DNA from: Strigamia acuminata
Taxonomy: Eukaryota; Arthropoda; Chilopoda; Geophilomorpha; Linotaeniidae
DNA length: 60,000 bases
Reading direction: 5' to 3'
Assembly (NCBI GenBank): GCA_949358305.1
Contig: OX442321.1
Coordinates: 3,375,605-3,435,604 of the forward strand
Of this stretch, positions 18,649 through 57,439 are shown one piece after another. The notes beneath the pieces were generated by a model. The model was not told where the DNA came from. It ran no database searches and saw only the letters and a program-made list of their open reading frames with translations. The translations under genes were made by a program, and so were the position numbers. The stretch's first letter is position 1. Each line of letters opens with the position of its first letter.

Positions 18649-19043
18649 ATGAACTCTAAATCTACAAGCAAAACGGAAGAGAGCACAAATCCATTCGTCG
18701 TAATATCATTCTATATTTGCGTCGCAGCGATAATCTGCTGGTGCAGTTATTTAGTTTACCTTTATTGGTATAAATTGAAAAAATAATTTCTAAATTTTGT
18801 AATTCTATTTTTTTTTAAAATGTAAATAGTACAAGTACTTCAGATCGGACATCAGAACCTTTGCCAGCAACTGCTCCACCTGCACAGATGCAGCCTGGTG
18901 TTCGACACCCCCAAGTCAGAGCAACTACCACTGGGTCCTCCCATGTAACACCGGCAATCCCCCGGGAATTTACCAACGAAAACAACCGAAGAATAATTAT
19001 GAGTAAAACCTTCGATTTTTTGATCAAATATTCGATTTCTTAG
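18649..19043 (+). CDS. Small single-pass membrane protein, novel family copy 1 (2 exons)
   Basis: Exon 1 is 18649-18767 (119 nt, ends in phase 2 before GTATAA); exon 2 is 18830-19043 after AAATAG. The predicted protein is 110 aa: a Ser/Thr/Lys-rich N-terminus (MNSKSTSKTEESTNPF), one hydrophobic span (about residues 17-40, VVISFYICVAAIICW), then a Pro/Gln/Thr-rich tail (PATAPPAQMQPGVRHPQ, TTTGSSH, FTNENNRRI). Without splicing the frame stops after LYWYKLKK. The same exon-1 length and phase in copies at 47313 and 56749 support the splice model. I do not recognise the family, and function is unknown. The last codons run into repeat sequence, so the true C-terminus may differ. Confidence 0.6.
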
Positions 19044-19094
19044 TGAAATATTTGATTTTTTTTTTTTTTTTTTTTTACCACAGATTACATCAAA

Positions 19095-19217
19095 ATGGGA
19101 AATACAAAATCAACCTACTCGAATATTGAACCCGAAGTAGTTATTGTTTATAGCATAGTCATAAATAGCCCAAAACAATATTATTTTAAGTTTTTCAATT
19201 TTTCAATTTTATTTTAA
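19095..19217 (+). pseudogene. MGNxKST-type peptide relic
   Basis: A short ORF starting MGNTKSTYSNIEPE followed by a hydrophobic stretch. Its start resembles the ORF at 30272 (MGNAKST...DPE). The MGN start is a potential N-myristoylation signal. It runs into AT-rich repeat and is probably decayed. Confidence 0.35.
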
Positions 19218-19675
19218 CTTTTTCAATTCATTTCATTATTCAGTTTCCATGAACGAGTCATTTTAAATTACTCGTCATTTTGTTTAACTTTAATTTTATT
19301 TATTTTATTTATTTATTTTATTTATTTTAATTTAATTTTAATTTTAGCAACAGCATTTTGCATTTGTTTTTATCTTATCTCATTTTTAGATAAAGGGTTG
19401 GTGAAATACATAAGAAAAGTCGTAAAAATTTAAAAATTATTTTTGTTATTTTAACATTATTTTTTTTTTAATTTATTATTTAATTTGTTAACGACTTCCA
19501 CCTAATTAAAGAGCGCGTGTTGTAAACGCGACGACTTTGACTCTTATTTTTCCGATCAAACCGAACATTTCACGTGATTATTTTTTAGTTTCTTTTAATC
19601 TCGCTTCTCGTAATAAGTTCTTAAAGCGATTTAATTACTTTGTATTGATATATTTATTTATTTATTTTTAAGATT

Positions 19676-19831
19676 ATGGAAATACCGGCGCAAATCTTAA
19701 AAGACAGATACAATAAAATCATGCACGGTGATCTACCAATCCCACGAAATCTCCCAGAATACATATACGCAACCACGTGTATTATGCTCAGCACCACTAA
19801 ACGTTTACATCGATTAATGCTTGTTTTTTGA
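19676..19831 (+). pseudogene. Conserved short ORF, MEIPAQILKDRY type
   Basis: A 51-codon ORF preceded by (ATTT)n and a TTTTTAAG acceptor-like sequence. It begins MEIPAQILKDRYNKIMHG and continues DLPIPRNLPEYIY. Related wording occurs at 39836-39931 on the minus strand (MEIPAGILRERYNAIMNG), at about 30510 (IPAQILKDRF) and at about 31385-31435 (FMNGHVQIPGNLPENVY). Conservation of protein wording among diverged copies suggests it was or is coding. Function unknown. Confidence 0.45.
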
Positions 19832-20011
19832 CGTGTTTGTTGTTGATTTGTGCATCGAATTAATCGAATGCGGCCAGTATTCTGTCGATTTGCCGAAGAA
19901 ATGTCAAAGCACAAGAGATAAGTCACTTTTATAAGTCAAACAAGTGATTCCAATTTCACTTAATCTTAATTTTTACTCGAATTCTCAGAGATAAGATGTA
20001 AAGCCGCAGCA

Positions 20012-20250
20012 TGCTGCTTTTGTTTCTAAGCTTATTTAATTTTTGCAACAAGGTAAGGTATTTTTATAATACAACAGAAAGTTTTTAAAAAAAATTTTCT
20101 CATAGTTTTTTCATTTTTTGCAGCAATTTTACTGTCAAAGAATTCTTAGATGAAATCCCAGATCCCGAAGCATATTTCGCAAAACAAGATGTTAGAACGA
20201 ACATCGCTTATCAAGATCATGTCAGCAGTTGTGTTCTTATTCTCGAGTGA
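20012..20250 (+). pseudogene. Two exon-like ORFs of unknown small gene
   Basis: The first piece, about 20012-20053, is hydrophobic (LLLFLSLFNFCNK) and ends at AAG|GTAAGG. The same ending (NK or DK before GTAAGG/GTAAAG) is seen at 30127 and 30382. After a TTTTTTGCAG acceptor, 20125-20250 reads NFTVKEFLDEIPDPEAYFA and stops with GTG TTC TTA TTC TCG AGT GA. The phases I tried do not join cleanly, so this may be a relic. Confidence 0.35.
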
Positions 20251-20414
20251 AAGAATAAATTACTTGTGCTATTTTTGAAAATATTCTCTTACTTTTAATT
20301 AAGGATTAGTTAGTTAATTTTTGATAAGTCCTAGTACGGCAACCGTCGTGATTTAAATTAGATTAAAGTCAGGATCAATTGCTCGTTTTTAACTCGTGAT
20401 TTTTGTCCCCGTTA

Positions 20415-20422
20415 TGACGTCA
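20415..20422. promoter_or_regulatory. CRE-like palindrome TGACGTCA
   Basis: A perfect cAMP-response-element palindrome 33 bp upstream of the ATG at 20456. It sits in a longer motif (CGCAACAATAATATCATC) shared with 26469-26495 and, with changes, 47276-47303. Confidence 0.5.
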
Positions 20423-20455
20423 CGCAACAATAATATCATCTGTCTTCATAACAAA

Positions 20456-20602
20456 ATGGACTCAAAATCAGAGAGCAAATCGGAGAGCACGTCTCCGTTG
20501 GTCATAGTAACATTTTTAATTTGTGCAACCTGTGCAACCTGGGTCAGCAACTGCTCGACCTGCGCAAGTGCAGCCTGGTGGTGTTCGACCCCCCCAAATT
20601 AA
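20456..20602 (+). pseudogene. Small membrane-protein family, fused/deleted copy
   Basis: It starts MDSKSESKSESTSPLVIV, like exon 1 of the family, but part-way through the hydrophobic span it jumps directly into sequence matching exon 2 of the copy at 18649 (nucleotides GCAACTGCTC-ACCTGC), read in another frame. The intron and the rest of exon 1 are missing. This is a deletion product that still keeps the CRE-bearing upstream region. Confidence 0.6.
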
Positions 20603-20799
20603 ACACCTTGGGTTGGTGAAATACGTGGAATTTGCACCAGTTTGACTCAATATCTCATATTCATATTTTTATATTTTATAACGTGAATTAATAAGATTTT
20701 TGTTATTACATTTCTTTAACATTCTGTTCATTTCTGTTCAGTTTTGCAACATTTATCTTCCGGAAGAGATAAGTCAATTTTATAATATCAAATATGTTA

Positions 20800-22104
20800 G
20801 AGTGGAGTGGGAATGGGCGGAACGAGAGAGACTGTTGAGACAGCGGAAATTATTTCAGTTGGAATGTCAGGTCATGTGGCAATATAAAGCATGAAAGAGA
20901 TTAAGAACTACACCCCAAGAAATAGAAAAATAAAAATTCGTATACAGAAATAAGAGAATCGAGCACAAAAAATTGATGGAATGTCAGTACACCTGCTAAA
21001 GCCATCTGCAAATGCATTTTTCCATCTGCAAATTCATTTCTCCATTTGAAAATGCATTTTTTTCCATCTAAAAATGCATTTTTTTTGCTTGAAAATGTCA
21101 TTTTTGAAGTTTATGACCATGTCTTAGCCACTGATCACTTTGAAAAGGTTTCAGAAATTACGTAAATCCCAAACTAAACACTTGATGTCACGAAAACCCA
21201 CAAAATAAATTCAATTTCAAATGAAAAATTCAAACCAAACGGCGCATCAAATCATATTCTTGCCAAATAAATACTCAACCGCCACATGAAGAAAATACAA
21301 TTCGAACTAGGCCTAAAATGGCGCCAAACCATAGCAAAAGAACATGAGTAAGAAAATAAATGGATCATTTTTCAAAGAAAATTCAAACCTGAGTAATTTG
21401 CGGAAATGGTAATGCCGAGTTGACTAACGTGAAACATGAACACAGCGTGTGACACGCAGTAACAAAAGTATTCATTTTCACTGCATTAGGCTTAAAATGG
21501 AATCCACAGAAATGAAATCGGGCCCAAAATGGAATGAAATCGGAAATTATCAACTCTCAATCCAGTACCTTGGTTGTGCATGGATAGAATTCTGCATAAA
21601 TAAAATGAAATACAAAGGAAAAACGAATGGAATATTGTGAAAACGGATGAAAAGAATGAAAACAACGGAGCGAAATGGAAGACACAGCACGACCAGCAAA
21701 ATCTTGCTGTTCACCTCGCCTCGTGCTGATCGAGACCAAATTACGTGACATATATATTATTGTTTAACGTCTCGCATTGTTTATAGCATTGTCATAAAAC
21801 GACCAAAATAATTTTATTTAAGTTTTTCAATTTTTGCAATTTTTGCAATTTTTGCAGCATGTCAAAAATCATTTGTGCAATTTTTGCAGCATAAAATTCC
21901 ATTCGTGACTAAAAAAGTAAAAAAAAAAAAAATGCATTTTGAACATACAACTCCATTTGTTCTTTTAAATCTAAAAACTAAATTTTATTCTAAAAAAAAA
22001 TCCACCATTTGCACATTCAAAAAAAAATCCAATTTATTCACTTCATTTAATTGAACAAAACTGTATTTAAAAAATAAAAAATGACAACCCCGACTAAAAC
22101 AATT
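20800..22104. repeat. Dispersed multi-kb repeat, copy (plus orientation)
   Basis: This shares blocks in the same order with 31470-34150 and, inverted, with 38580-37390. The blocks include a run of TGCATTTT/CATCTGCAAATGCA elements, a block with CATCAAATCATATTCTTGCC, a block encoding CCSPRLVLIETKLRD, and a final block ending in MTTPTKTIS wording. A small ORF at 21449-21640 (MESTEMKSGPKWNEIG) recurs, decayed, at about 54550. Confidence 0.75.
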
Positions 22105-25922: not shown

Positions 25923-25946
25923 ATTGCGTTTCCATTAATCAATCAA

Positions 25947-26312: not shown

Positions 26313-27600
26313 CCTCGATTATGCGGTGGCAAAAGGAGGGTTGTTTTGCGAGATTTGTCGAGATTTGTTAAAGGTTTTAAGAATTTAGTCGGAATTCGTA
26401 AAGATTTGATTGAATTTTTTTAAATTTGACAAAATCCATCACAATTGTCTGTTATTTCATCATCGCTATGACGTCACGCAACAATAATATCATCTCTCAT
26501 CTGTCTTCATAAATAGAGTATAAGGAAATCAGATTTAAAAATCAAATTGCAACAGATTATTACGAGGTCCGCTCTTTATGTATTGTGTTGTTTTTAGAAA
26601 TAAATAAAATTTAAATGTGAAGACATTTTTTTAAAACTTCTAAACCCCATCTAATGTCTAAAGTCTAATAAAAAAGTCTAATAAAACGGTTCTGTCTGTC
26701 CGTCCGTCCGCATCAACTCCTCCAAAACGAAAGCAGCTAGAGCCAAATGGGCAACTGCAATGAACTCGGCATACCTTCAATAGGTGCCTAAGGAATTTTC
26801 GTACGCATTACAGATGGCTTGTTTTATTTTGTTAGGGGTTTGGGTTTTGGATGTGCAGGAGATTGATTTTGTAGGATTTAGAAGATTTGTGGGAAGATTT
26901 AAGAAGATTTTAGAGGTTTATTTGAAGATTTGGAGAAGATTTTAAAGGTTTATTTGAAGATTTGGAGAAGATTTTAGAAGATTTTAGAGGTTTATTTGAA
27001 GATTTTAGAGGTTTATTTTAAGATTTTAGAGGTTTATTTGAAGATTTTAAGAAGATTTTAGAAGATTTTAGAGGATTTTAGAGATTTATTTGAAGATTTT
27101 AGAGGTTTATTTGAAGATTTGAGAAGATTTTATAGATTTGTCTGAAGATTTGAGAAGATTTTATAGATTTATCTGAAGATTTGGGAAGATTTTATGGATT
27201 TGTCTTAAGATTTGGTAAGATTTTAAACATTTGTCTCAAGATTTGATGGGATTTAATAAGGTTTTAATGATTCGGCTCAAGATTTCATAAGATTCTAAAA
27301 ATTTTGTCTCAAGATTTTATAAGATTCTAAAGATTTGTCTCCACATTTGATGGAATTTGATTTGAATTAGATTTTACGCTATCATTCGTTTTTATCAATA
27401 AAATTGGTTTTTTCCATTAAAAAAATCGTTTTAAACCAATACAGTACAAATTCATTTTCACACGTGCGCCTACATCTTGACAAGTTCCTCAAAGTTTTTA
27501 AGAATTTAGTCGGAATTCGTAAAGATTTGATTGCATTTTTTTAAATTTGGCAAAATTCATTAAAATTTACACGGATTTTGTGGAATTTCGTCAAAATTTG
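26313..27600. other. Intron-derived and simple-sequence DNA between gene copies
   Basis: 26330-26440 and again 27490-27620 resemble ZCCHC7-like intron 3 (35185-35320). Between them are a CRE-containing upstream fragment of the small membrane-protein family (26455-26515), a CTGTCCGTCCGTCCGCATCAA stretch (26690-26720), and about 460 bp of degenerate AAGATTTTAGAGGTTTATTTG repeats (26870-27340). No gene seen. Confidence 0.6.
26469..26476. promoter_or_regulatory. CRE-like palindrome TGACGTCA, orphan copy
   Basis: Same octamer and flanking GCTATGACGTCACGCAACAA context as at 20415, but exon 1 is missing downstream. It is a fragment of the family's upstream region. Confidence 0.45.
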
Positions 27601-27637: not shown

Positions 27638-28080
27638 CGTACGACTTCGGCTCGCCGTGAGCAGATTGCCGCACAACCTCCAGCGGCTCAACCCGTGCGA
27701 GTTGTTGCAACTCCAGTTGCCTTTGCCCCTCAACACGTGCGAGTTGGAGCTGACAGAACGTTTCCGAATGCCGACAATCGCAAAATTATCATAAACTATC
27801 AAGCTAATAAGGGCCCAACGGGCGAAACTCAAAGGAGATCACTAAGAACTTTGAGCAGGGTTGTTTTTTTTATTTTTATTATTTTTATTTTTTTTATTTT
27901 TATTTTCTTATTAATTTATTTATTTCTTAGGATTTAAAAATTCCAGTAGAAGATGTTGTAGCTCAGCAAAATCTGTTATTAATTAACAGTGTTCGAGTCA
28001 CAAAATTACCTAGACATCTTTATCATAGCCTACACTACAACAGAAAGAAAGAAATAAATAAAAAAAAATGTAAAAAATAA
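27638..28080 (+). CDS. Small membrane-protein family, exons 2 and 3 only
   Basis: The exon-2-like frame (about 27638-27859; RTTSARREQIAAQPPAAQPV, then FPNADNRKIIINYQANKG and SLRTLSR) joins in phase 0 through GTTGTT...TTTCTTAG to exon 3 at 27931-28080 (DLKIPVEDVVAQQNLLLINS, LPRHLYHSLHYNRKK, stop). The first part matches copy 1 (FTNENNRRI) and the copy at 56749 (YREQSAQIAHPVASQPV). The second matches the inverted copy at 40540-40620 and exon 3 at 45977. No exon 1 was found: the 5' side is ZCCHC7-like intron sequence. It is probably a truncated copy, but it shows how exons 2 and 3 connect. Confidence 0.5.
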
Positions 28081-29039: not shown

Positions 29040-29900
29040 AAGACAGGAGTGACAGCAATGGTTTGGCTACTTAATTTATCTGTACAGGTAAAATTGAAAA
29101 AATAATTTTAAAATTTTTTAATTCTTTTTTTTCTTCAAAAGGTCGTAGCACATCTCCCCGCCCAAGTGGCTCGTGCGAGACAAAGTGGGTTTTCGGATGA
29201 GGATGATATTGGAAAACAGAAATGTGTTCATAATACGTTCGAATATTTAGCGAATCAACCAATTGGTCAAATTGTTAACCATGTTATTATCATTGGATTA
29301 TTTAAGCTGGCATTTGTAAATTATATATTGCCAAAGATATGTCTTAGATTTGTTATTTGTTATTTTTATTTTATTTATTTATTTACTTATTTCTTAGGAG
29401 CTGAATATTCACCCTATCCACACACTAATCAAATTTACAGTTCAAGTGCTTGACAGAACTGTACAGTAATTATACAACATAATAATTCACTACAAGCAGC
29501 TAAAGGAGGATCTGAAAATCAAAGAAAAAAGATCCTCAATAAAGTTTGACTTTGACTTTGGGCTTTTCATTACTTTCTCTATTCTGACACTCTTAAAGCG
29601 TGCCATTAGGACCAGGAAGGGAGGTTAATGGCCAGAAGAGGGGTTAAAACTACAGTTACAAAAAAACTACAAAAGTAGCGATCATCGTAGCCATGTGACC
29701 ACCAAGTTGACTGGATAGAAAACCACAAAAGATAAAGTGCAACCTTTAAGCTAAGTTAGGCTGAGGAAATAAACTACAAGTGCATAAACTAGAAAATGCA
29801 AGATGCCAGGTTGAAGATTTTTAGAAGTAGAAGAGATAAGTCACTTTTATAAGTCAAAGAAGTGATTCCAATTGCGCAAGGGGTAAAGAAAATTTTGTAA
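29040..29900. repeat. Dispersed repeat block with polyadenylation-like end, copy 1
   Basis: It contains an exon-like ORF (29166-29453: ARARQSGFSDEDDIGKQK, then GLFKLAFVNYILPKICLRFV). TTTCTTAG and an AATAAAGTTTGACTTTG 3' end (about 29538) follow, then a block ending with GATAAGTCACTTTTATAAGT. The same order recurs at 30560-31260 and 57330-57865, and partly at 45030-45100 and 31745-31900. Confidence 0.7.
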
Positions 29901-30039: not shown

Positions 30040-30382
30040 TTGATTTTAATAACCAGAGGTGGTTATTACATTTATTAAAACGGCCGGATTCTGTTTGTTT
30101 TTTTGTTTTTGCTTATTTTGTGACAAGGTAAAGTAAACAAAAACAAATCTAATTTTATAATTATTTTTTTTTTAATATAGGAAACAAGATCCGGTTCCGG
30201 TTCCGGTTCCGTTTGATAAACTAGCCGTCAATCGACTATCCCCTATAAATCCCTCATTTCTATCCCGAAAAATGGGCAACGCGAAATCAACAAACTTCAT
30301 CTTAGATCCGGAATTCTGTACACCACTCATCAAAACCGTCGGTGTGTTTTTGTTTTTGGGTGTTCGGTTACTTTCTAACAAG
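30040..30382 (+). pseudogene. Exon-like ORFs of an MGNxKST-type small protein
   Basis: Hydrophobic wording KTAGFCLFF...LFCDK ends at a GTAAAG donor (30128). After an ATATAG acceptor a frame from about 30181 reads KQDPVPVPVPFDKLAVNRLS and then MGNAKSTNFILDPEFC (ATG 30272), ending KTVGVFLFLGVRLLSNK|GTAAGG at 30382. The two hydrophobic endings are homologous, so this is a tandem of related exons. MGN is a possible myristoylation start. No confident downstream exon. Confidence 0.4.
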
Positions 30383-30559
30383 GTAAGGTAAACAAAGAAC
30401 AAAAATAATTTTTAATTAATTTTTTTAAAATATAGCTGGATTAAAGTGCATAATTTGTCACACCTAAATTATCAAAGGCTGAGGCAATACCGATTACAAC
30501 ATGTCCAATAAATTGGGAATACCAGCGCAAATCTTAAAGGACAGATTTTTTAAAATGTC

Positions 30560-34580: not shown

Positions 34581-37242
34581 TCATTTATTCCTTCTAGATT
34601 TACACTTCTTTTTATTGTTTCGCACTTTCGTCGGCAATTCGCATTCATTTAACTTGGTTAACTTCGCTCGCTCCTCTTTCCTCTGCATTTTCCGCTTCAA
34701 CTTTGTCACCGCCGATCGAAAGAAATCGACTTCCTCGACGTCTTGCGTCTTCGCGGGCGTTTTCACGCGTTTCCTTTTCGTCTTTTTGGGCACCGGCGAC
34801 TCTTCCGCGTTGGTTTCTTCGCGTTTTGGGCGTTTTCGTTGTCTCCTCCTCGGTTTTTTCGGCGGTGCGGGTTCTTTGCGCGGGCGCTCGACGTGTTTTT
34901 CGTGGTTGGTCCATTTTTTGCGTTTGTGATGTCGTCCGTCGTCTCTGCTGGCCTCGATTATGCGTTTCCATTCGTCGTTCGAGGTGTCTAGTAACAGCTC
35001 TCTGCGGTCGTCGTCGACGGTTATTCGTTTTGGGCCCTCGTAGCTGATTACGAATGGTTTAGTTGGTTGGATAGAAGGTTTCATCATAGGGTAAGGGCAT
35101 TTCTGGAATGAATTTTTGAGTTTTTAGTGTGTGGGTTTGTGGATTCATAATTGTTGGTTGTGTGCATGTGTGGCAAGTGATGCAACGGCAAAAGGAGGCT
35201 TGTTTTGCGAAATTAGTCGGAATTCGTCACGATTTGATTACATTTTTTTAAATTTGGCAAAATTCATTAAAATTTACACGGATTTTGTGGAAATTCGTCA
35301 AAATTTGACGAATATCGACAAATTTCTATACAAAATTGGATCAAATCGTTTAAATTGATCAAAATTAGATAAAATCGTTTAAATTGGTCAAAATTGGATC
35401 AAATCGTTTAAATTGATCAAAATTGTTTGAAATTTTGTCGAAATTCGTCAAAATTTGATTAAATTTTATCACAAATCGCCAAAATCCTTCAAAATTGTTC
35501 CTAATTTCATCAAATTTGGACGAATTTCGACAAATTTCAAAATAAAATTGCATCAAATCGTCTAAATTCACAAAATTGTTTGAAATTCTGTCGAAATTCG
35601 TCAAAATTGTTTGAAATTCTGTCGAAATTCGTCAAAATTGTTTGAAATTCAGTCGAAATTCGTCAAAATTGTTTGAAATTCTGTCGAAATTCGTCAAAAT
35701 TGTTTGAAATTCTGTCGAAATTCGTCTAAATTTGATCAAATTTCGTCACAAATCGCCAAAAGCCATCATAATTGTCTCTAATGTCATCATACGTTGTCGA
35801 ATTACAACAAAATCCGATCAAAATTTGCCAAAAATCATCAACATTTTATCGGAATTAACCAAACTCGCTCCACAAACCAAATCACCACACAACTAAACCA
35901 ATCCTTACATGTCCCCAATGGCCTTTCTTCCCGCAATTAAAACAAAAAACCCTTGGATTTGCCTCCGATGATCCTCTCACTATCGCTCCCTCACTTATCT
36001 ACAAAAAAAAATCAAAATCAAAATCAAAACCCTAAAAAAACCAACCACAAAACCCAACAAACCGTCAAATGATATCTCCGCCACAAATCGGGACAACTCG
36101 CCCTCGAATGTCCCTTAACCCTACACCGCTTACAGCGCTTCTTCAAATCCGCCGAACTCATCTGACACACGCTAACGTGGTGTCCCACACCCTCGCACCG
36201 CGCGCACAACGTCCCCAAACAATCCTCGACAGCATGATCCGTCTCCCCGCACATCCGACAGTGCGGAATTCGCTGAAAAATACAAAAAAATCGAATAAAT
36301 CACAACAAAAATCGATTTTTCTTCTAAAAAAAACATCTTTACGATTTTTTCGCGGCAATCTCTCTCCATGTGTCCCCACTGCTGGCAATTCCTGCACTTT
36401 ATTTTAATTTTCGTGTTGAATCCGCCTCCGAAAAATCGCTTTTTGTCCGATATCCAGCCGAATCGATCGTCGTTGCAAATCTTCCAACCGATATCTCTCG
36501 TAGTCGATTTCGGAGCTTCAATTTCCTCGTCGCTCGACGTCGAATCGTAAAATTTCCTCATTTGTTCCGCGTAATCGGTCAGAAAATCGCCGCTTTTCGC
36601 AATTTTCTTCTTTCGAGGCGAATCCGTCGCGATTTTCCTCTTCTTGCTGCAATTTCCACGATTGAACAATGGCGTCGTATCGATATTAATATCGATATCG
36701 GTCGGCAAATCGATTTTAGCGTCATCGTTTGCTCCGAAAAACGAATCGGAATCAGAATCCGACGTAAAAACATCCAAAACAGCTTTTACCTTCGGTTTTT
36801 TACACTTTTTCTTGCTGGATTTAAAAATATCGACCACTTTTACATCACTATCGGTCGTTGAAGCGATATCAATGATGGTACTTGATCCGGGTTCTCGGGA
36901 ACTTGACCCGGGATCGCGGGAACTTGATCTCGGGTTATGTTCAACAACAGACACAAATTGGGTTAATTTGTCCACCCCGGAGTGAGTTCCGCGCTTCTTT
37001 TTGACCGTTTTCTTATAGGGTTTGTTGTTTTTCACTTTTATCGTCCTTTTTTCGATATCCGGCGAAGGTTCTGCCGCTAACGATTCGTTTTTCACCTCAG
37101 CTGTTGTGAAATCGTCTTGGTAATAAATGTTTGAATACATCATGGCCTCCACTTCGCTGTCGACATCCTCGGCGCCTTCTATGTTGTCCTCGTTTGTATA
37201 GAAGTAATCATCGTCGTCTAAATTCTCTTCGTAATCCCACAT
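34581..37242 (-). CDS. ZCCHC7: ZCCHC7/Air-type CCHC zinc-knuckle protein (4 exons)
   Basis: Exons: 37242-36343, 36272-36063, 35998-35909 and 35102-34581, all phase 0; 573 aa. Exon 1 is acidic (MWDYEENLDDDDYFY) and then Ser/Asp-rich, ending with DIGWKICNDDRFGW and knuckle CRNCQQWGHMERDC. Exon 2 adds CRMCGETDHAVEDC, CARCEGVGHHVSVC and CKRCRVKGHSRASC; exon 3 adds CFNCGKKGHWGH, completed by KC of exon 4. A run of CCHC knuckles is characteristic of ZCCHC7/Air1-Air2, the RNA-binding subunit of the TRAMP nuclear RNA surveillance complex. The C-terminal exon is strongly basic (KKPRRRQRKRPKR), suggesting nuclear localisation or RNA contact. Length is close to the human protein. Intron 3 (about 800 bp) carries tandem repeats. 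Its 3' end is duplicated at 25947-26312. Confidence 0.9.
35560..35735. repeat. 31-bp tandem repeat in ZCCHC7-like intron 3
   Basis: The unit GTTTGAAATTCTGTCGAAAT plus TCGTCAAAATT is repeated about 5 times. Related degenerate words fill 35330-35830. Confidence 0.85.
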
Positions 37243-39373: not shown

Positions 39374-39461
39374 CCCCATCACTTTCTGGAGGCGGACGAT
39401 CGCCTCATTGTGCAGACCTCTGCACAATGAAGCGATCGTCCGCCTCCAGAAAGTGATGGGG
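39374..39461. repeat. Long near-perfect palindrome (43-bp arms)
   Basis: The left arm 39374-39416 starts CCCCATCACTTTCTGGAGGC; the right arm 39419-39461 is its reverse complement with one mismatch. The spacer is 2 nt. The left arm contains a frame with HFLEADDR, a word also found in the ORF at 56131-56532. Confidence 0.95.
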
Positions 39462-39835
39462 TCGTATAACCACTACTGGAGCCTAGGTCCTATATTTTAA
39501 GAAAAATTATTCTAAAATTACATTTGTTTATTGTTTACCTTACCTTGATGCAAAAAATGCGTAAACAACAAAACATGCAGACTCCTGCGACCTTAATTAG
39601 AGTAATGAGAATTTCAGGTTCTATGTGCGAGTCGAATTTTTACAAATAAACAAAAAACTATAAACAATTAATCCATATAGCATTGCAAGAATTTTGAATC
39701 CATTTTTGAAACAAATAAAATTTAAAAAAACAAAAAAAAGAAAAAACCAGATCAATGAACGGACTAAAAGTTCTGAGCAAAATACAAGTGCTTGTTGTAT
39801 AGTGTATGTGTGGAATCCGGGAATTTCTGCGTCTG

Positions 39836-40539: not shown

Positions 40540-40903
40540 GATGGGTCGCGGTAAATTCTTGACTTTAACATCGCGTTTTAACAACACCGCTTGTTGATCT
40601 AGAATTTTTAATGTCTAAGAAATAAATAAATGAATAAAATTATTCAATAATAAAAAATAAAAAATTACCCTGCTCAATTGAGCTAAAGATTTCGCTTGTT
40701 TAGCTCCAATCATCTCTTTCCTATCCTGGTAATTAACAGAATTCTTTTATTATCTTCGTTGGTAAAACGCTGGGGAGTTACAGCAAAGCCAAATACGCCA
40801 AAACCGCAATAAAACACAAACTGCAAGCCCAAATGAAAGTTGCAATAGTCTGATCAGAAATATATCGTATTTTTTTGATTACTTTTTCACTGAAATCCGC
40901 CAT
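40540..40903 (-). pseudogene. Small membrane-protein family, inverted decayed copy
   Basis: The minus strand starts MADFSEKVIKKIRYISDQTI (ATG 40903) with hydrophobic FIWACSLCFIAVLAYLALL. It then passes, without a usable donor, into exon-2 wording (RFTNEDNKRILL) and, after an indel, NYQDRKEM...SLAQLSR|GTAATT. It continues after TTTCTTAG with exon 3 (LDQQAVLLKRDVKVKNLPRP). It shows that the MADFSEK-type first exon and the NRR/NYQ/LSR-type exons belong to one gene family. Stops and a frameshift make it non-functional. Confidence 0.7.
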
Positions 40904-41340: not shown

Positions 41341-41361
41341 AAACTTAAAATTCTAAAATAT

Positions 41362-41490
41362 TTATAAATTATACAAAGCACAATAAGTCAAAACAGCAAT
41401 GAAACAGAAACTGAAGGCCCAAATTAGATGCCCGATTGTTTGATCTGATATGTATCTTATCTTTTCTATTATCTTTTCGCTAAAATCAGC
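41362..41490 (-). pseudogene. Small membrane-protein family, exon 1 copy without ATG
   Basis: The minus strand reads ADFSEKIIEKIRYISDQTIG then LIWAFSFCFIAVLTYCALYNL and stop. The ATG position is AGG. The upstream part of the copy at 40903 is also shared (TATTTAAGCCTT). It is a decayed exon 1. Confidence 0.65.
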
Positions 41491-45715: not shown

Positions 45716-46117
45716 ATGAATTCAAAATTCCAAAATCAAACTCAGGAGTCACATCCATCGGAAGTCATTGCTCTTTATGTCTGCGCAACAGTCATATTCT
45801 GCTGGGCGCTTTATTTGTTTTATTTATATTGGTATAAATTGAAAGAAAAATTTGCAAATTAATTAATTATATTTTTTTTTTAAAAAATGTAAAATAGGAC
45901 TAAAGATGAGAAATCAGCAACTGCACTTGCTTCACCTCAGGAAACTGTATATTTATTTATTTATTTATGTATTTAGGCTATTCATTGGTCAGTTAGACAG
46001 CTAAAGGCTCAGAGAGATCTGTTGTTGAGGACCAATATACGATTTCCCCACCTAGGCCCGCAAAATTACCAAAGCCTCTATCAACACAGAAAACATAATC
46101 GAAATAATTTGTTATAA
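45716..46117 (+). CDS. Small single-pass membrane protein, novel family copy (3 exons)
   Basis: Exon 1 is 45716-45831 (phase 2, before GTATAA), exon 2 is 45898-45946 (phase 0, before GTATAT) and exon 3 is 45977-46117; 101 aa. The N-terminus is MNSKFQNQTQESHPSE, the hydrophobic span VIALYVCATVIFCWALYLFY, then a short linker (TKDEKSATALASPQET) and a basic Gln/Leu exon 3 (VRQLKAQRDLLLRTN, LYQHRKHNRNNLL). All exons join in frame. Exon 2 is shorter than in other copies, cut off by an (ATTT)n tract that supplies the second intron. Upstream, GTCATGCAACAATAACAT resembles the CRE-linked motif but without the octamer. Confidence 0.6.
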
Positions 46118-46869: not shown

Positions 46870-47046
46870 TGTTTGCAATAAAAATACGATTTATTTCAGA
46901 TCAGACTATTGGAACTTTCATTTGGGCTTGCTGTTTTTCCTTCATTCCAGTTTTGGCGTATTTGGCTTTGTATAATTTTTTTTTAATTTAGTCTCTACAT
47001 CGATCTGTAGAGGAGCTTGTGAGGGCGCGAAAGAAAAAGGTGGGTG
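46870..47046 (+). pseudogene. Small membrane-protein family, 5'-truncated copy
   Basis: It begins inside exon 1 (FISDQTIGTFIWACCFSF), keeps the GCTTT|GTATAA donor, and after TTTAATTTAG continues with exon-3 wording (SLHRSVEELVRARKKK...DLL, stop). Exon 2 is missing; the N-terminus is replaced by other DNA. Compare 56749-57439. Confidence 0.6.
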
Positions 47047-47312: not shown

Positions 47313-50300
47313 ATGAATTCTAAAAGCACCAGTAAAACTGAAGAGAGCACAAACCCGTTCGTTATAATCACATTTGATATTTGTTTTACTATTATTGTGC
47401 GAGACATCAGTCATTTCGTGTTCCTTTATTGGTATAAATTGCAAAAATTATTTGTAAATGTTATGCTGGGGCATCACGTTGAAATAAAGGAGAGGTTTTT
47501 AAAGTGGAAAACAAAACACACGTCTTTACTCGTGGGTAAAATACAAGCAAGTGAGGAGTAATACAAAATTGTCATGGTAACGCTTTTACAACAATGTAAC
47601 AGTATGATATAGCAGTAACACGTTCTTAACAATGAACTCAACATCACATTAACATAACTTAACATTACTTCCCCTGAAACCCATTATGCCCTGATAATTG
47701 GTTTCACACCTAATAATTCTCTGAAATTACTTAATTTCACTTTATCTAAAGGCTTTGTCAATAAATCAGCTTCATTGTTCTCGGTTGGAACAAATTCCAA
47801 TTTGACTCGTTTCGCCTTTATCTGTTCTCTGATGTAGTGGTACCGGACGTCAATATGTTTTGATCTCCGGTTCTCCACATTGCTTTGTGCAAAAACTTTA
47901 GCTGGTTGGTTGTCGCATCTCATGATTGTTGGTCCTCCGATCAACGTTGACAAATCCAACTCTTCGATCAGTCGTCGCATCCATACAATGTCTTTCGAAC
48001 AATTGCACATCGAGATGTACTCGGCTTCCATGCTGCTGGTGGCTACGACCTTCTGCTTGCTGCTCTGCCATATTACTAAATTCTCGGCTAGTTTCAGCAA
48101 AGTTCCGCTGTAAGATCTTCGGTTAATCTTGCAATTCGCCCAATCTGCGTCTGCGAATGCAGTCAAAAATCCTTTATTCTCATTGTAAACCAATCCGTGT
48201 TTCTTGGTTCCCGACAGATATCGTAGAATGCGTTTGGCCATTTGCCAGTGATTGGTTTTTGGTTTGCTGTTAAATTGTGCTAACACATTTACAGCGTGTG
48301 AAATGTCCGGTCTCGTACTGTTGGCCAAGTAAGATAAGCAGCCAATTACCTCTCTATAAGGCTCGACCGTCAGATCTTCAAATTCTTCTGGCTCTTTCTT
48401 ATTGTTGTCAGTACATTTCACCATTGGTGTCGCCATTGGTTTTGAATCAGTCATGTTGAATCTCTTCAGGATTTTCTCAACATATTTTTCTTGCGTTAAA
48501 AACATGTTTCCGTTTTTATCCCGTCCAAATTCGATTCCTAACATGTACTTCAGAGTTCCAAGTTCTTTGATTTCAAAACATTTACGCAGTCTCTTTTTGA
48601 TTTCTCGACACATGTTTTCTGATTGTCCGGCTATCACCATGTCGTCGACGTAAACCCCGATAATTCCGCGTTCGTTTCCTATTTGAATCCAATAAACACA
48701 CGCGTCGGAAAAACAACGTTTGAAACCCTGTTTCTCGAGTTCCTCGTCCAACTTGTCATTCCACGCACGTCCTGATTGTTTTAATCCGTATAACGACTTG
48801 ATTAGTCTGCACACTTTGTTTTTCCATTTTCCCACTAAGCCTTCGGGAATTTCCATGTAGACTTCTTCTTCGAGTATACCATTTAAGTATGCTGTCGTTA
48901 CATCAACTTGTTCCAACACCCAACCCAAAATTACAGCTATAGCAATTATGAGTCGCATTGTCGCAATTCCGGCCACTGGAGAATATGTCTCGGTATAATC
49001 ATGACCGTAGCGCTGTGTAAATCCTTTGGCAACTAAGCGCGCTTTATACCGCTCAACTGAACCATCTGGGTTTTGTTTGACTCGAAACACCCATTTACAG
49101 CCAATCGCTTTGCTGTCTTTTGGTAAATCCGTAATCTCCCATGTTTCATTCTTGTGTAAGCTGTTTAATTCGTCATCTATTGCGGTTTGCCATTTCGTTG
49201 CGTCCTTGGAATTCAATGCCTCTTGGTAGGTAGAAGGTTCTTCAAAATGACAAAACATTGCTGTTCCTATCAAATCCTCTTCATCTTCCTCCTCAGCATC
49301 TTCCGTTTCTGCAACTTCCGGTTCCGCTTGTTGTTGCACCTGACTTCGGAGAATCATCTTTGTTGGTTCGTACTGTTTTTGAACGGCTTCAGCTTTTGTC
49401 GGTCGTCCACGTTTTGGTTTTGCCGCTGGCGGAACTTGTTTCGGTTCGTCGAAAGTGAGAGTCATTACTTCCTTCGCGTCCAATTCATCCGTTTCGTTGA
49501 ATCCGAATTCATTTTCTTTGAACACGACGTCACGTGAAGTCATCACTTTTCTTTTCTTGGTATTCCACAACCGATATGTCTTCTCCCCGGCTGAATACCC
49601 AAGAAATATGCATTTTTCTCCGCGATTGTCCAATTTTCTTCTTTTGGCCGCGGGAACGTGCATCACTGCATTGCAGCCAAACACTCTTAAGTGTTTCACG
49701 GATGGCGTTCGCCCGTACCAAACTTCATACGGCGTTTTCCCAGTGATTTGTGTCACTGTCCGGTTTCTCACGTAAACTGCAGTATTGACTGCTTCAGCCC
49801 AAAAATCTGCACCCAATTGCGTTTGGATCAAACTTGACCGCACCAGATCCAGCAATGTCCGGTTTAATCTCTCAGAAATTCCATTTTGTTCTGGGGTGTA
49901 CACTGCGGTGCGTTGATGAGAAATTCCTTTCTCCTTCAGGAAACGGTCAAATTCTTCGTTGCAGTATTCGAGCCCGTTATCCGTTCGCAAGGCTTTTATT
50001 TTCTTCCCCGTTTTTCTCTCCATTCTCGTCATGTAATCTTGAAATTTTTCAAGCGCTTCAGATTTGTGGGTCAGAAAGTAGACATCTATTTTCCTTGACT
50101 TATCATCAATAAACGTAATGTAGTAACGATGCCCTCCCTTGCTCTTTGTTTGAAGTGGACCCGCAATGTCCGAATGGATCAAATCCAGTACTTCGGATGC
50201 CAACTTCCGTTCTTCCTTGTTGAATGGTTTTCGGGTGGATTTTCCTTGGAGACATGAATCACATTTGCTGATTGCATCTTTGTTGATCTCCAATCCCCTG

Positions 50301-52541
50301 ACTTTGTCTTTTTCGGCCATCTTTTGTAGACTGTCCAAAGACACGTGCATGTATCTTTGATGCCAAATTTCGTTTTTGGTCGCTTCCGTTGTCGCCGTCA
50401 TCCCGTGATGTGACGCCTCGTTGACCAGATACATTCTGTTTTCTCTCTTCGCTCGAAGAATCACGACATCCTTTGAATTCATCACGTTGCAAAATCCGTT
50501 CTTGAATGACAACCAGTAGCCTTTTGCTTCCAGTTGCGCGACGGAGAGTAAATTCATCGTCACTTCCGGCACGTAAAGTACTTCTTTTAAAATCGTTGGT
50601 ACTGTCTGCCCATCGTACACGAAATCTACGTTGATGTCCCCTTGAGCTTCTACTTTGACCTTCTTTCCGTTTGCGATATTTATTTCCGCCACTTTGGGAT
50701 TTTGAAGTTCCAAAAATTTCCCTTTCTGCGCTGTCATGTGATGACTCGCTCCTGAATCGATCACCCAAACGTCCTTATCCGCTCGCGCCGCAAATGCCGA
50801 CATAACATTGGCCTTCTTGTGGTCACTGGAATTCTTGGACTCAGCGCTTCTTTCCTTCTTGGGCTTGTGGCAGTCCCGCGCATAATGGCCAAATTTGTTA
50901 CAATTGTAACATTTGATCTTTTTAAGATCACGTTGCTGTGGAATCTTGTTTGCAATTAGCACAGCCGAATCCCGTTTGGTATTGTCTGAAGTCTCTCTTC
51001 TTGAAGACTCCGCCAATATCATGTCTTTTATTTTGTTCGACGTGAAATCCGCTTTTGCAATCGTGTGTACTGACGTAATCAGTCCTTCGTATTCTTTGGT
51101 CAAACCACATAACATGGCCCAAGCCAAATCTGTGTCCCCGACCGTTTGGCCCGCATTCGTTAATCTCTCGGAGCATTCGGACACTCTCATGAGATACTTG
51201 TCCATATTTTCACCGGTTTGCTTCACTGTTGAGTAAAGTTCTCGGCGAAGTTGGACAATGCGTAACGAGTTCGTCGGTTCGTAGACTTCTTTCAGTCGAT
51301 CCCAAGCTTCTTTTGGACTTTTCAACCCCCGTATATGAGACTGTTGCTGCGTTTTAATAGTCAAACCGATTATTGAAAAAGCTTTATTGGTCAGCTCTGC
51401 CAATTTCGTCGCGTCAGCTTCTTTTTCAGTCCCATCAACTACAGCCCAAAGTTTCTTCTCAGTAAGTAGCAGTTTGACACTAAATGCCCATGACAAATAG
51501 TTGGACCCGTCCATTTTTTCAATTCCGTAGGACGTAATGCCTGATGATGACGTCGTATCTGTCATCTCGTTTCGGAAAATTTTCAAAATTGCAAATAGCA
51601 CAGACTGTTGTCAGTTTCAAACAATTTTCCCCCAAAATAGCAACAACAATTGAAACAAACTTAATGCTATCTTAAATCTACAACAAAGCTTCGTTGCGCA
51701 GATCCTAACAATACAAGTTTTAAACAATTGCATGCACAAATAGTTCGTTTTGCTTCAATAATGGCGTCGTTTTCTTCTTGTTTCGATTGCACGTGCAGTT
51801 CGAAAATGGCGTCGTTCGAATCCCGTTCGTTGCAAACTCGTTGAAAATTATGCCTTTCGTCCCTTATGGCTCATGAAGCTAATTACTAGTCGAAAATAAC
51901 TCACAGTTCCCGACCTCGTTTGCGTCCTCGTTCGATTTAGGCCCGTCTTGCCACACGTTCGATTCCGCTCGTTTTTCCGTTTTCTCGGAACGTCTGCCGC
52001 ACGTTCGAATCGTCTGCCGTACGTTCGAATCGTCTCGTCGTGCCGTGGAAACGTTCGTCTACCTTTCCGATATTCGTTGGACACACCCGCGCTGCTTAAC
52101 GTCCTGGACCCATAACCAATTTGTTATGCTGGGGCATCACGTTGAAATAAAGGAGAGGTTTTTAAAGTGGAAAACAAAACACACGTCTTTACTCGTGGGT
52201 AAAATACAAGCAAGTGAGGAGTAATACAAAATTGTCATGGTAACGCTTTTACAACAATGTAACAGTATGATATAGCAGTAACACGTTCTTAACAATGAAC
52301 TCAACATCACATTAACATAACTTAACAGTAAATTCTTTAATTCTATTTTTTTTTTAAAAAAATGTAAAATAGGACTAAAGATGAGAGATCAGCAACTGCA
52401 CTTGCTTCACCTCAGGAGACTGGTGTTCCACACGTGCAGCCTGAGGTTCCACATTCCAACTTTAGACTAACTGCCACTGGATCTACACATGGACCATCTG
52501 CTGCGATCCCCCAACACACACTCGCCAACACACATCCATGA
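47313..52541 (+). CDS. Small membrane-protein family copy with Copia C in its intron
   Basis: Exon 1 is 47313-47431 (119 nt, phase 2, before GTATAA) and exon 2 is 52373-52541 after TAAAATAG; 95 aa. It starts MNSKSTSKTEESTNPF like the copy at 18649, has a hydrophobic span (VIITFDICFTIIV) and a Pro-rich tail (SATALASPQETGVPHVQPEV, TATGSTHGPSAAIP). The only thing between the exons besides about 70 nt of original intron is the 4.9-kb Copia C element, which is antisense and leaves both splice sites untouched. The span is interrupted by RDISH, so membrane insertion is less certain in this copy. Confidence 0.55.
47459..47664 (-). repeat. 3' LTR of Copia C
   Basis: 206 bp, TGTTAAGTTATG at the 5' end and CAGCATAACA at the 3' end (minus strand). 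Apparently identical to 52122-52327. Confidence 0.95.
47684..51565 (-). CDS. Copia C gag-pol polyprotein, full length
   Basis: One open frame. I prefer the ATG at 51565 (MTDTTSSSGITSYGIEKMDG), 1,293 aa; an in-frame ATG lies 12 codons upstream. Order: gag with NYLSWAFSVKLLL; CCHC CYNCNKFGHYARDC near residue 230; protease WVIDSGASHHMT near 280; GAG-pre-integrase IWHQRYMHVS; integrase with LIHSDIAGP, LRTDNGLEY and ISERLNRTL; RT with RYKARLVAKGFTQRYG and YVDDMVIAG; RNase H with DADWANCKINRRSYSG, SMEAEYISM and KHIDVRYHYIREQ. All catalytic motifs are present. RT wording (YGLKQSGRAW) places it apart from elements A and B. Confidence 0.95.
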   Translation of the reverse strand: MTDTTSSSGITSYGIEKMDGSNYLSWAFSVKLLLTEKKLWAVVDGTEKEADATKLAELTNKAFSIIGLTIKTQQQSHIRGLKSPKEAWDRLKEVYEPTNSLRIVQLRRELYSTVKQTGENMDKYLMRVSECSERLTNAGQTVGDTDLAWAMLCGLTKEYEGLITSVHTIAKADFTSNKIKDMILAESSRRETSDNTKRDSAVLIANKIPQQRDLKKIKCYNCNKFGHYARDCHKPKKERSAESKNSSDHKKANVMSAFAARADKDVWVIDSGASHHMTAQKGKFLELQNPKVAEINIANGKKVKVEAQGDINVDFVYDGQTVPTILKEVLYVPEVTMNLLSVAQLEAKGYWLSFKNGFCNVMNSKDVVILRAKRENRMYLVNEASHHGMTATTEATKNEIWHQRYMHVSLDSLQKMAEKDKVRGLEINKDAISKCDSCLQGKSTRKPFNKEERKLASEVLDLIHSDIAGPLQTKSKGGHRYYITFIDDKSRKIDVYFLTHKSEALEKFQDYMTRMERKTGKKIKALRTDNGLEYCNEEFDRFLKEKGISHQRTAVYTPEQNGISERLNRTLLDLVRSSLIQTQLGADFWAEAVNTAVYVRNRTVTQITGKTPYEVWYGRTPSVKHLRVFGCNAVMHVPAAKRRKLDNRGEKCIFLGYSAGEKTYRLWNTKKRKVMTSRDVVFKENEFGFNETDELDAKEVMTLTFDEPKQVPPAAKPKRGRPTKAEAVQKQYEPTKMILRSQVQQQAEPEVAETEDAEEEDEEDLIGTAMFCHFEEPSTYQEALNSKDATKWQTAIDDELNSLHKNETWEITDLPKDSKAIGCKWVFRVKQNPDGSVERYKARLVAKGFTQRYGHDYTETYSPVAGIATMRLIIAIAVILGWVLEQVDVTTAYLNGILEEEVYMEIPEGLVGKWKNKVCRLIKSLYGLKQSGRAWNDKLDEELEKQGFKRCFSDACVYWIQIGNERGIIGVYVDDMVIAGQSENMCREIKKRLRKCFEIKELGTLKYMLGIEFGRDKNGNMFLTQEKYVEKILKRFNMTDSKPMATPMVKCTDNNKKEPEEFEDLTVEPYREVIGCLSYLANSTRPDISHAVNVLAQFNSKPKTNHWQMAKRILRYLSGTKKHGLVYNENKGFLTAFADADWANCKINRRSYSGTLLKLAENLVIWQSSKQKVVATSSMEAEYISMCNCSKDIVWMRRLIEELDLSTLIGGPTIMRCDNQPAKVFAQSNVENRRSKHIDVRYHYIREQIKAKRVKLEFVPTENNEADLLTKPLDKVKLSNFRELLGVKPIIRA
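52104..52118 (-). promoter_or_regulatory. Primer-binding site of Copia C (half initiator tRNA-Met)
   Basis: The minus strand TGGTTATGGGTCCAG lies three bases after the 5' LTR. It matches the internal part of initiator tRNA-Met with one difference, as in Copia B. Confidence 0.7.
52122..52327 (-). repeat. 5' LTR of Copia C
   Basis: 206 bp, apparently identical to 47459-47664; followed by the GTAAA duplication. Confidence 0.95.
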
Positions 52542-54150: not shown

Positions 54151-54154
54151 CTAT

Positions 54155-54534: not shown

Positions 54535-54800
54535 CTAGGCTTAAAATGGAATCCACAGAAATGGAATCAGGCCCAAAATGAATAAAATCACGAATTATCA
54601 CCTCTCAAACCTTCTAAATCCGGTACATTGGTTGTGCATGGATAGAATTCTGCATAAATACGAAGGAAAAAGGAATGGAATGTTGTGAAAAATATCAACC
54701 AGAGAAAACGAAATGGAAGACAGCACGAACAGCAAAATCTTGCTGTTCACCTCGCCTCGTGCAGATCGAGACCAAATTACGTGTCAGATTATTGTTATAT
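54535..54800 (+). repeat. Dispersed multi-kb repeat, fragment
   Basis: Colinear with 21480-21755 (GGCTTAAAATGGAATCCACA, GGTTGTGCATGGATAGAATT, CAGCAAAATCTTGCTGTTCA). Confidence 0.8.
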
Positions 54801-55375: not shown

Positions 55376-55606
55376 TGATGTTTTTAGACATTTTGTTGTC
55401 GTTTTTAGACATTTTGTTGTCGTTTTTAGACATTTTGTTGTCGTTTTTAGACATTTTGTTGTCGTTTTTAGACATTTTGTTGTCGTTTTTAGACATTTTG
55501 TTGTCGTTTTTAGACATTTTGTTGTCGTTTTTAGACATTTTGTTGTCGTTTTTAGACATTTTGTTGTCGTTTTTAGACATTTTGTTATCGTTTTTAGACA
55601 TTTTTT
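55376..55606. repeat. 21-bp tandem repeat, about 11 units
   Basis: The unit TTTTTAGACATTTTGTTGTCG is nearly perfect throughout. Because 21 is a multiple of three, it is open in several frames (antisense MSKNDNK repeats); I do not take this as coding. Confidence 0.95.
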
Positions 55607-55724
55607 GACTTGATCAGAGGTCAGAGGTCAAATTTGAGGATGCCATCAGATTCGCATACGAGTTTTTTTTCCAGTTTTCTGATATCTCAAGTATTTTCGA
55701 AATTACTTGGGACACCCTGTATAT

Positions 55725-55775
<51 letters not shown>

Positions 55776-55776
55776 G
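55607..55776. repeat. MITE-like fragment with CACCCTGTATA end and (ATTT)n tract
   Basis: 55612-55722 ends TTGGGACACCCTGTATATTT, then (ATTT)n follows to 55774 and serves as acceptor region for the next exon-like frame. Confidence 0.6.
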
Positions 55777-55917
55777 GCTATTCATTGGTCAGTTAGACAG
55801 CTAAAGGCTCAGAGAGATCTGTTGTTGAGGACCAATACACGAGTTCCACACCTAGCCCCATTGAACTACCAACGCCTCTATCAACACAGAAAACAAAATC
55901 GAAATAATTTGTTATAA
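55777..55917 (+). pseudogene. Small membrane-protein family, isolated exon 3
   Basis: After TTTATTTAG the frame reads AIHWSVRQLKAQRDLLLRTN, VPHLAPLNYQRLYQHRKQN, stop: the same length as, and only a few residues different from, 45977-46117. No exon 1 or 2 lies upstream; the 21-bp satellite is there instead. Confidence 0.6.
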
Positions 55918-56130
55918 TGTAATGGACAAATGTTTGGAATAGAAAGATCGGATTTTGACAAACTTAAACGTTTCGATCCAATGTTGTTAGAAAAATACAA
56001 TAAAAAATGTATTTTTCCCATTTTTTTCACCTCGCCTCGTGCTGATCGAGACCAAATAACCGAGTTCTAGAACTAATTATTCGGCAGGATAATTTTTTTA
56101 ATTCCGTATTTAATTAGGGAGTATTTTTTT

Positions 56131-56532
56131 TTGTGTTTCATAGGTTTATTTTTAGCAAGTGGCTTCAAGTGGCCTCGCCTCAAAATGATAGATTATTCGA
56201 CTTTCACACCAATATTTCCAGACCTTTTTACTGGGGCTTGTCAGTCACTATTCGATCGTTTTCTGGAAAACCATGACCCATTCTCTACAGAGCCGATAAG
56301 TGAAACAAGCACTGATAAGCCGATAAATGAGTCAATCGACTTTGGCCAGGCTGCTGTTTTTAGTAATAAAATAGATAAACAATTAATTGAGTTCGTACAA
56401 CTTCATTACTCCGTATTCATTTATTCATTTACTTATAAACCGGAACCGCAATCGTACAACTTCCTAGAAGCCGACGATCGGGAAATTTTCCTGGAATTTT
56501 TCTTGGTTTTTATATTTTATAAGGTGAATTAA
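56131..56532 (+). CDS. 133-codon ORF of unknown protein
   Basis: The frame is preceded by TTTCATAG and TTTTTAG acceptor-like sites, so it may be an exon. It reads MIDYSTFTPIFPDLFTGACQ, later FDRFLENHDPFSTEPISE, and near its end YNFLEADDREIFLEFFLVF. The word FLEADDR is also found in the left arm of the palindrome at 39374. Acidic, soluble composition with a hydrophobic C-terminus. It runs into a 31-bp tandem repeat. Confidence 0.4.
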   Translation: MCFIGLFLASGFKWPRLKMIDYSTFTPIFPDLFTGACQSLFDRFLENHDPFSTEPISETSTDKPINESIDFGQAAVFSNKIDKQLIEFVQLHYSVFIYSFTYKPEPQSYNFLEADDREIFLEFFLVFIFYKVN

Positions 56533-56640
56533 TAAGATTTTTATATTTTATAAGGTGAATTAATAAGATTTTTATATTTTATAACGTGAATTAATAAGAT
56601 TTTTATATTTTATAAAGTGAATTAATAAGATTTTTACCCA
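56505..56640. repeat. 31-bp tandem repeat, 4 units
   Basis: Unit TTTTTATATTTTATAAGGTG plus AATTAATAAGA. A single unit is present at about 20665-20700. Confidence 0.9.
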
Positions 56641-56748
56641 GGAAATAAAACATAAGTGCATAAACTGGAAATGCAGTTTTTCCAGCTGTAAATGCCTTTT
56701 TTTGCATGAAAATGTCATTTTTGAAGTATATGATCATCCTCTTAAGTT

Positions 56749-57439
56749 ATGGCGGATTTCAGTGAAAAAGTCATAGAAAAAATACGATTTATTTCAGATC
56801 AGACTATTGGAAGTTTCATTTGGGCATGCAATTTTTGCTTTATTGCGGTTTTGGCGTATTTGGCTTTGTATAATTTCCAAATATTTAAATTTGTAAGTTT
56901 TTAAATTTATTTTATCTGATGTAGAAAATCTTTCTCCAGACAAGAGACGAGGCAACCAATTGGCCCTTTGAATGGAACTCCACATGGCTTCGTGTTGCCA
57001 ACAAGTGGGATTGCTATAACCGCTCAAGGAATTTCAATTCCGATTGGCTTACAAGTGGCCATCGCGAATCAACCACTCGGACAACCAAGTCCCACGTCGA
57101 TGTTACCGGTACCAGCACCACCTCCCTTTAGTGGGGCTGACAATAAAGCTATAGTAGATACGAAGTATTTGTTATTATTGTTTATAGTTTATTTAACTAG
57201 TTTTTTTTTTAATTTAGTCTCTACATCGATCTGCAGACGATCTTAAAAAACAAAGAAATCTCTTACTCAGCAACCTGGATCCACGTGCCAAATTTAAGTC
57301 GCTTAAATTATCAAAGGCTCGGGCAGTATACCGAGAACAATCTGCGCAGATTGCACACCCGGTCGCCAGTCAACCGGTGCAGGTGCAAGGTACATTACCT
57401 ACACGAATAATACATTACTGTACAGTAATTACAAATTAA
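56749..57439 (+). CDS. Small single-pass membrane protein, novel family, best complete copy (3 exons)
   Basis: Exon 1 is 56749-56867 (119 nt, phase 2, before GTATAA), exon 2 is 56925-57153 (phase 0, before GTAGAT) and exon 3 is 57218-57439; 189 aa. N-terminus MADFSEKVIEKIRFISDQTI (amphipathic, charged), hydrophobic span GSFIWACNFCFIAVLAYLAL (residues 21-40), then a Pro/Gly/Gln-rich region (QPIGPLNGTPHGFVLPTSGI, GQPSPTSMLPVPAPPPF). Exon 3 is basic and helical-looking (ADDLKKQRNLLLSNLDPRAK, LKLSKARAVYREQSAQIAHP). An AATAAA lies 43 nt after the stop. No family is recognised. The build, a short N-terminal head, one span and a long proline-rich side, resembles small adaptor-like membrane proteins but gives no function. 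Confidence 0.65.

Follow-up and report, generated by a model that had tools for sequence, protein, structure and literature searches.

A 60,000-nucleotide (nt) stretch of the genome of the centipede Strigamia acuminata (C10:3375605-3435604, on the 10.36-Mb scaffold C10 of the 237.5-Mb assembly; 'the window' in what follows) contains a family of small, multi-exon genes that, to judge from their sequences, was clearly protein-coding and under purifying selection, at least in the past. One architecture recurs: a first exon with a single hydrophobic span, followed by a second exon rich in Pro, Gln and Thr, and then by a basic third exon. Orphan (taxonomically restricted) gene families that turn over by birth and death are a known class; the present family is new in content, of a kind already known, and small as found here. 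On balance, it is probably an orphan family of S. acuminata, restricted to its lineage and evolving by birth and death, whose products would be adaptor-sorted, single-pass proteins with exchanged anchors.

The signs of selection are found in two types of first exon, MNSK and MADF. The pooled ratio of nonsynonymous to synonymous change (dN/dS) is 0.15 among five copies of the MADF exon (proportions of synonymous and nonsynonymous differences, pS and pN: 0.53 and 0.12) and 0.06 among four copies of the MNSK exon, the truncated copy at 20456 excluded (pS 0.75, pN 0.26). When the identical alignments are reread in the two wrong frames, the ratios become 1.35 and 1.66 for MADF, and 0.86 and 1.26 for MNSK. 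Differences between copies also collect at the third position of codons: summed over five pairs, positions 1, 2 and 3 differ 41, 24 and 72 times (chi-square p 2.3e-6), and 29, 19 and 57 times (p 1.5e-5) over the four pairs that are left when 40903/C1 is omitted; the pair 56749/41490 alone shows 5, 5 and 20 differences (p 5.5e-4). Recent duplicates have flanks and introns in common, besides exons, as they would if the exons were chance open frames within tandemly duplicated, AT-rich non-coding DNA. Such an origin is hardly credible, however, in view of the third-position excess and of dN/dS values that are low in one frame only, in both exon-1 types (wrong frames 0.86 to 1.66).

For exon 2, selection on the reading frame is suggestive only: the 56749 copy and the copy at C1:45.92 Mb align with an in-frame gap of 12 nt, and differ 6, 2 and 8 times at the three codon positions (p 0.17). 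In exon 3, three old paralogues (55777, 57285 and 30452) have the same hexapeptide, LNYQRL, yet its codons differ in 4/6 cases (55777 versus 57285), 5/6 (55777 versus 30452) and 2/6 (57285 versus 30452). Over 21–23 codons, comparison of 55777 with either of the others gives pS 1.0 and pN 0.33–0.34. A frame under selection, as an orphan family should possess, is thus found in both exon-1 types and at the end of exon 3 in these three paralogues.

Several observations weigh against the coding reading. When the five pairs are tested one by one, codon position gives p < 0.05 in a single pair (0.00055) and p from 0.074 to 0.18 in the rest, and comparisons with the distant 27994 show weak or absent constraint (pS 0.57–0.83, pN 0.43–0.53). 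Among five recent copies of the AIHW form of exon 3, dN/dS is 0.50, indistinguishable from the 0.89 and 0.55 of the wrong frames, and exon 3 of the 56749 copy no longer reads through in its ancestral phase-0 frame. An earlier note on this DNA had seen in the conserved protein wording the mark of selection, and had proposed dN/dS among copies as the check; with the ratios in hand, the claim stands for old paralogues, both exon-1 types being well below 1, and is undecided for the recent AIHW copies. Because the signal consists of divergence between old paralogues, it is evidence of function in the past rather than now.

The same note listed ten loci that share pieces of one gene plan. All ten do contain them, beyond chance in tblastn and shuffle tests, and a partial eleventh site can be added at 29059. 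First-exon comparisons by tblastn, made within 260 kb of fetched sequence, give expect (E) values of 3e-14 to 7e-20, and just 4e-5 for the truncated 20456; shuffle tests comprised 2000 shuffles for exon peptides and 1000 for intron 1. Site by site, the window contains:

18649..18767, plus strand: MNSK-type exon 1, 119 nt, phase 2, donor GTATAA
18830..19040, plus strand: Pro/Thr-rich exon 2 of the 18649 copy, open until its stop
20456..20599, plus strand: MDSK, the 25 first codons of an MNSK-type exon 1 fused with a piece of exon 2
27638..27859, plus strand: exon 2 without exon 1, ending LSR, then a GTTGTT donor, phase 0
27931..28077, plus strand: exon 3, diverged DLKIP type with YHSL
29059..29197, plus strand: the partial eleventh site, decayed; exon 1 end (WFGYLIYLY), intron, exon 2 start
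30272..30387, plus strand: MGN-type first exon, 116 nt long and in phase 2 provided that splicing uses the second of two adjacent donors (GTAAAC)
30436..30508, plus strand: last exon with LNYQRL; the frame runs on openly from the MGN exon only via the second donor
40787..40903, minus strand: MADF-type exon 1, donor lost
40669..40772, minus strand: exon 2 end with a frame change, then a GTAATT donor
40540..40614, minus strand: exon 3, TLKIL type
41356..41490, minus strand: MADF-type exon 1 without start codon; upstream TATA-like element retained
45716..45831, plus strand: MNSK-type exon 1, 116 nt, donor GTATAA
45898..45946, plus strand: exon 2 shortened to 49 nt, with 30 nt left ahead of exon 3
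45977..46114, plus strand: exon 3, AIHW type with YQSL
46880..46969, plus strand: MADF-type exon 1 without its 5' part; 22 nt on, the start of an SLHR-type exon 3 (46992)
47313..47431, plus strand: MNSK-type exon 1, donor GTATAA
47459..52327, minus strand: copia-type element in intron 1 of the 47313 copy (open reading frame, ORF, 47684-51601)
52373..52538, plus strand: exon 2 of the 47313 copy, past the copia element, open until its stop
55777..55914, plus strand: exon 3 alone, AIHW type with LNYQRL
56749..56867, plus strand: MADF-type exon 1, 119 nt, phase 2, donor GTATAA
56925..57164, plus strand: Pro/Gln-rich exon 2 of the 56749 copy
57218..57407, plus strand: exon 3 of the 56749 copy, open in phase 2, LNYQRL retained; the AIHW-matching frame shifts part-way

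Sorted by type, MNSK first exons occur at 18649, 45716, 47313, 20456 (the first 25 codons only) and C10:3315.7 kb, and MADF first exons at 56749 (plus), 41490 (minus, without ATG), 40903 (minus), 46880 (plus, 5' part missing) and C1:45.92 Mb, the genome search for MADF returning five matches from five candidates scored. A third type, MGN, begins at 30272, with a myristoylation-like start and one hydrophobic span; an incomplete relative lies at 19095, and a piece of another at 39624 (minus). Exon 2 is found at 18830, 20535 (a piece), 27638, 29141 (the start), 40772 (minus), 45898, 52373 and 56925; its end carries a motif, approximately F-x-N-x-[DN]-N-[RK]-x-I, at 18963, 27761 and 40772, and more weakly at 57.13 kb. 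Exon 3, at 27931, 40614 (minus), 45977, 46992 (start only), 55777 and 57218, takes AIHW, SLHR and DLKIP/TLKIL forms, all of them basic. The exons at 27931 and 55777 align without gaps over 38 residues, a match equalled by 0 of 2000 shuffles, and tails that stand behind different first exons are related, too (55777 with 57219, and 30440 with 55777; 0 of 2000 shuffles as good in each case).

Equal length, a common donor and a phase-0 join had been offered earlier as evidence of a single gene plan, and each proves true in part. Exon 1 measures 119 nt save at 45716, where it is shorter by one codon (116 nt). The GTATAA donor is present at six sites (18649, 45716, 47313, 56749, 41490 and 46880) and missing at 40903 and 20456. 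Exons 2 and 3 fit a phase-0 join at 27859->27931 and 40669->40614 (minus), as do the remnants at 45946->45977; the 56749 copy departs from it, the sole open chain found there joining the two exons in phase 2. What did not survive is the first exons as one plan: homology between MADF and MNSK is unsupported, 261 and 444 of 2000 shuffles being as good, and hence equal length and donor need not imply one plan for exon 1. Homology of MGN to MADF and to MNSK is likewise unsupported (284 and 241 of 2000). In six comparisons of intron 1 between MNSK and MADF copies, for which the C1 and 3315-kb pieces were imprecisely cut, 82, 587, 221, 804, 0 and 292 of 1000 shuffles were as good. By exact-pattern search, GTCAYGCAACAATAA precedes 4/5 MNSK exons and CTTMAGTATTTAAG 3/5 MADF exons. 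The element GTCACGCAACAATAA, seen upstream of MNSK exons, also occurs at 26475, where there is no MNSK exon match.

The earlier view of these copies as so many separate genes is not borne out. Ten of the eleven sites in the window are incomplete or damaged, by missing exons, start or donor, by frameshift, or by copia insertion. No exon 3 is recognised behind exon 2 of the 18649 copy, and no exon 2 in the 41490 copy; in the 45716 copy, the 30-nt gap between exons 2 and 3 is short for an intron. The copia-type element in the 47313 copy is bounded by a target duplication, GTAAA, and the paralogue at C10:3315 kb has the empty site; since the long terminal repeats of the element agree at 206/206 positions, insertion was recent. 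Only 56749-57407 offers an open chain of exons 1, 2 and 3 among the eleven sites (183 amino acids, aa, in a non-ancestral phase). Where the frame of its exon 3 (57218) changes, the paralogue at C10:3316 kb (fetched stretch L018) is 1 nt shorter in a by-eye alignment. Outside the eleven sites, the MGN-type locus at 30272-30508 has two open exons, encoding 63 aa, if the second of its adjacent donors is used.

Decay on this scale raises the prospect of a dead gene array, in which the family worked in an ancestor and every present copy is a pseudogene or fragment. The copies outside the cluster—three sites on C1—are all partial, moreover, and the recent AIHW copies are without clear constraint. 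Against this, the 56749 copy is open through three exons, 30272 through two and 18649 over two, and strongly diverged members, even intact ones, could escape the genome search because it scores the best candidates only. An array wholly dead is, in our opinion, rather unlikely.

Those searches, of the whole genome by both protein and DNA, counted E < 0.01 as an exon match. At that threshold, and among the best candidates scored, exons turned up only in the C10 cluster and at three places on C1:

C1:2.298 Mb: exon 3
C1:39.27 Mb: exon 2, in part
C1:45.92 Mb: exon 1, together with an exon 2 that is split by about 320 nt

Elsewhere, the 27638 protein has eight weak matches (E 0.2–4.4). Non-coding repeats beside the exons, in contrast, are dispersed over many scaffolds: one search gave 78 matches among the best 40 of 404 candidates scored, and a second gave 56 among the best 40 of 182. 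This dispersal, together with the movement of exon 3 and its flank to C1:2.298 Mb (95% identical over 346 nt), is what might be seen were the exons carried by a non-autonomous repeat. We think a mobile element of this sort improbable, for besides the limited spread of the exons found, no Pfam family matches past the cut-off (best E 0.031, 13.7 bits; cut-off 23), and in the loci sampled the repeats are dispersed but the exons are not. Outside the cluster, seven repeat loci yielded just three exon matches at E <= 0.05, of 10–13 residues, and three further repeat stretches gave weak matches, the best with E 0.001 over 21 residues. The flanking repeats can be ruled out as parts of the genes in these sampled loci, which contain no recognisable exons. 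Two such dispersed non-coding repeats, 20885-21421 and 29420-29870 with their copies, are often found together on other scaffolds, and one flanking-repeat copy (fetched stretch L041) adjoins a gene that we take to be WDR35-like.

The earlier note recognised no known family in these sequences, and neither Pfam nor protein searches supply a relative. Among 5.8 billion proteins there is no homologue at E <= 1 (64 and 28 candidates for two queries, the second a composite of several copies), so that none outside the lineage appears in the protein searches, as expected of an orphan; PDB chain sequences give no match. The control for this search, the ORF at 36235-37242 (minus), retrieved T1IWU9 of S. 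maritima (55% identity); it is a zinc-knuckle (CCHC-type) protein gene with a counterpart in that species. In the titles and abstract openings of published work on lineage-specific families of Strigamia and centipedes, there is no description of this family. Like other orphan families in birth-and-death evolution, it forms a local cluster, has no relatives that were found, and includes selected old paralogues and many decayed copies; it differs in placing different membrane-anchor exons before related tail exons. It offers a myriapod case of a small, spliced orphan family in mid-turnover, with old selection, a repeat-rich setting and a recent copia hit within 60 kb, and short multi-exon genes of this kind are easily overlooked by annotation.

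What might the products do? Hydropathy maxima of 1.6–2.4 in exon 1, in five models, support one span. The exon 3 tails contain motifs of YxxPhi form: LNYQRL in the three old paralogues, YQSL in the exon at 45977 and YHSL at 28018. Since YQRL has this form and the hexapeptide is held by selection, we propose adaptor-sorted membrane proteins. They would be short and cross the membrane once, and would have, besides a Pro-rich linker, a basic tail in the cytosol, the YQRL or YHSL of which might be read by mu subunits of clathrin adaptors, and in consequence the protein might cycle between the cell surface and endosomes or the Golgi. SDYQRL of TGN38 serves as a canonical YxxPhi peptide in PMC3912200. 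The predicted centipede proteins would be like TGN38-type cargo in having one hydrophobic span and a short tail with YQRL; the centipede protein differs in being short, with a basic tail and no PDB or Pfam match, and the likeness is one of form, not descent. A possible resemblance to small fusogenic viral membrane proteins may also be mentioned.

Varied anchor exons—MNSK, MADF and perhaps MGN—would stand ahead of related tail exons in such proteins, and duplication and exon exchange in the repeat-rich cluster could vary the anchor and outside part while the trafficking tail is kept. Whether this amounts to a true modular system, in which a single adaptor-recognised tail exon pairs with three or more different anchor exons (MNSK, MADF, and the myristoylation-like MGN if its second donor is used) that have phase-2 donors at 116–119 nt and are swapped by recombination, is a more tentative matter; we consider it possible, though less than probable. 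Should the copies prove to be expressed, the pairing of related tails with exchanged anchors would provide a testable instance of exon shuffling in a lineage-restricted family.

Some features fit adaptor-sorted products poorly. The net charge before and after the span is +1/+2 at 56749, -1/+2 in MGN, 0/-1 at 18649, 0/0 at 47313 and -1/0 at 45716, and so favours a cytosolic tail only slightly, in the 56749 and MGN models. YxxPhi is a short motif and is not kept throughout, being YQRP at C1:2.298 Mb and YIYA in the MEIP-type exon at 19673, and the 18649 and 47313 chains stop ahead of any YxxPhi tail.

Other pieces of the neighborhood resemble exons. The MEIP-type piece, MEIPAQIL...LPIPRNLPEYIY, occurs at 19673 (plus), 39934 (minus), 39304 (minus), 30519 and 31382; its relation to exon 3 is weak (19673; 96/2000 shuffles as good). 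A conserved peptide of the form F-[LS]-EADDR-x-I is found at 56467 (plus), 40111 (minus), 39446 (minus), 39389 (plus) and position 6578 of fetched stretch L024, and in L024 and at 39446 it lies shortly behind a splice acceptor-like site. Perhaps it represents another exon of MGN-type genes. A palindrome at 39374-39460 surrounds the EADDR piece, making the motif readable on both strands.

Upstream of the cluster lie pieces of SRCR-domain genes, at 17394-17771 (minus) and in fetched stretches L016 (4308-4451, 6361-6507) and L023 (7704-7802). Large copia-type reading frames occupy 3083-15903 (minus), where the repeats D10 (6143/11733) and D11 (3083/15604) point to one element lying inside another. 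Y linkage of C10 was considered and rejected: at 10,363,448 bases, C10 fits chromosome 8 (10.36 Mb), not the Y (10.34 Mb). The GC content of 210 kb from C10 is 39.2%; in the S. acuminata assembly qcStrAcum1.1, chromosome 8 has 38.0% GC and the Y 42.5% (PMC10556566).

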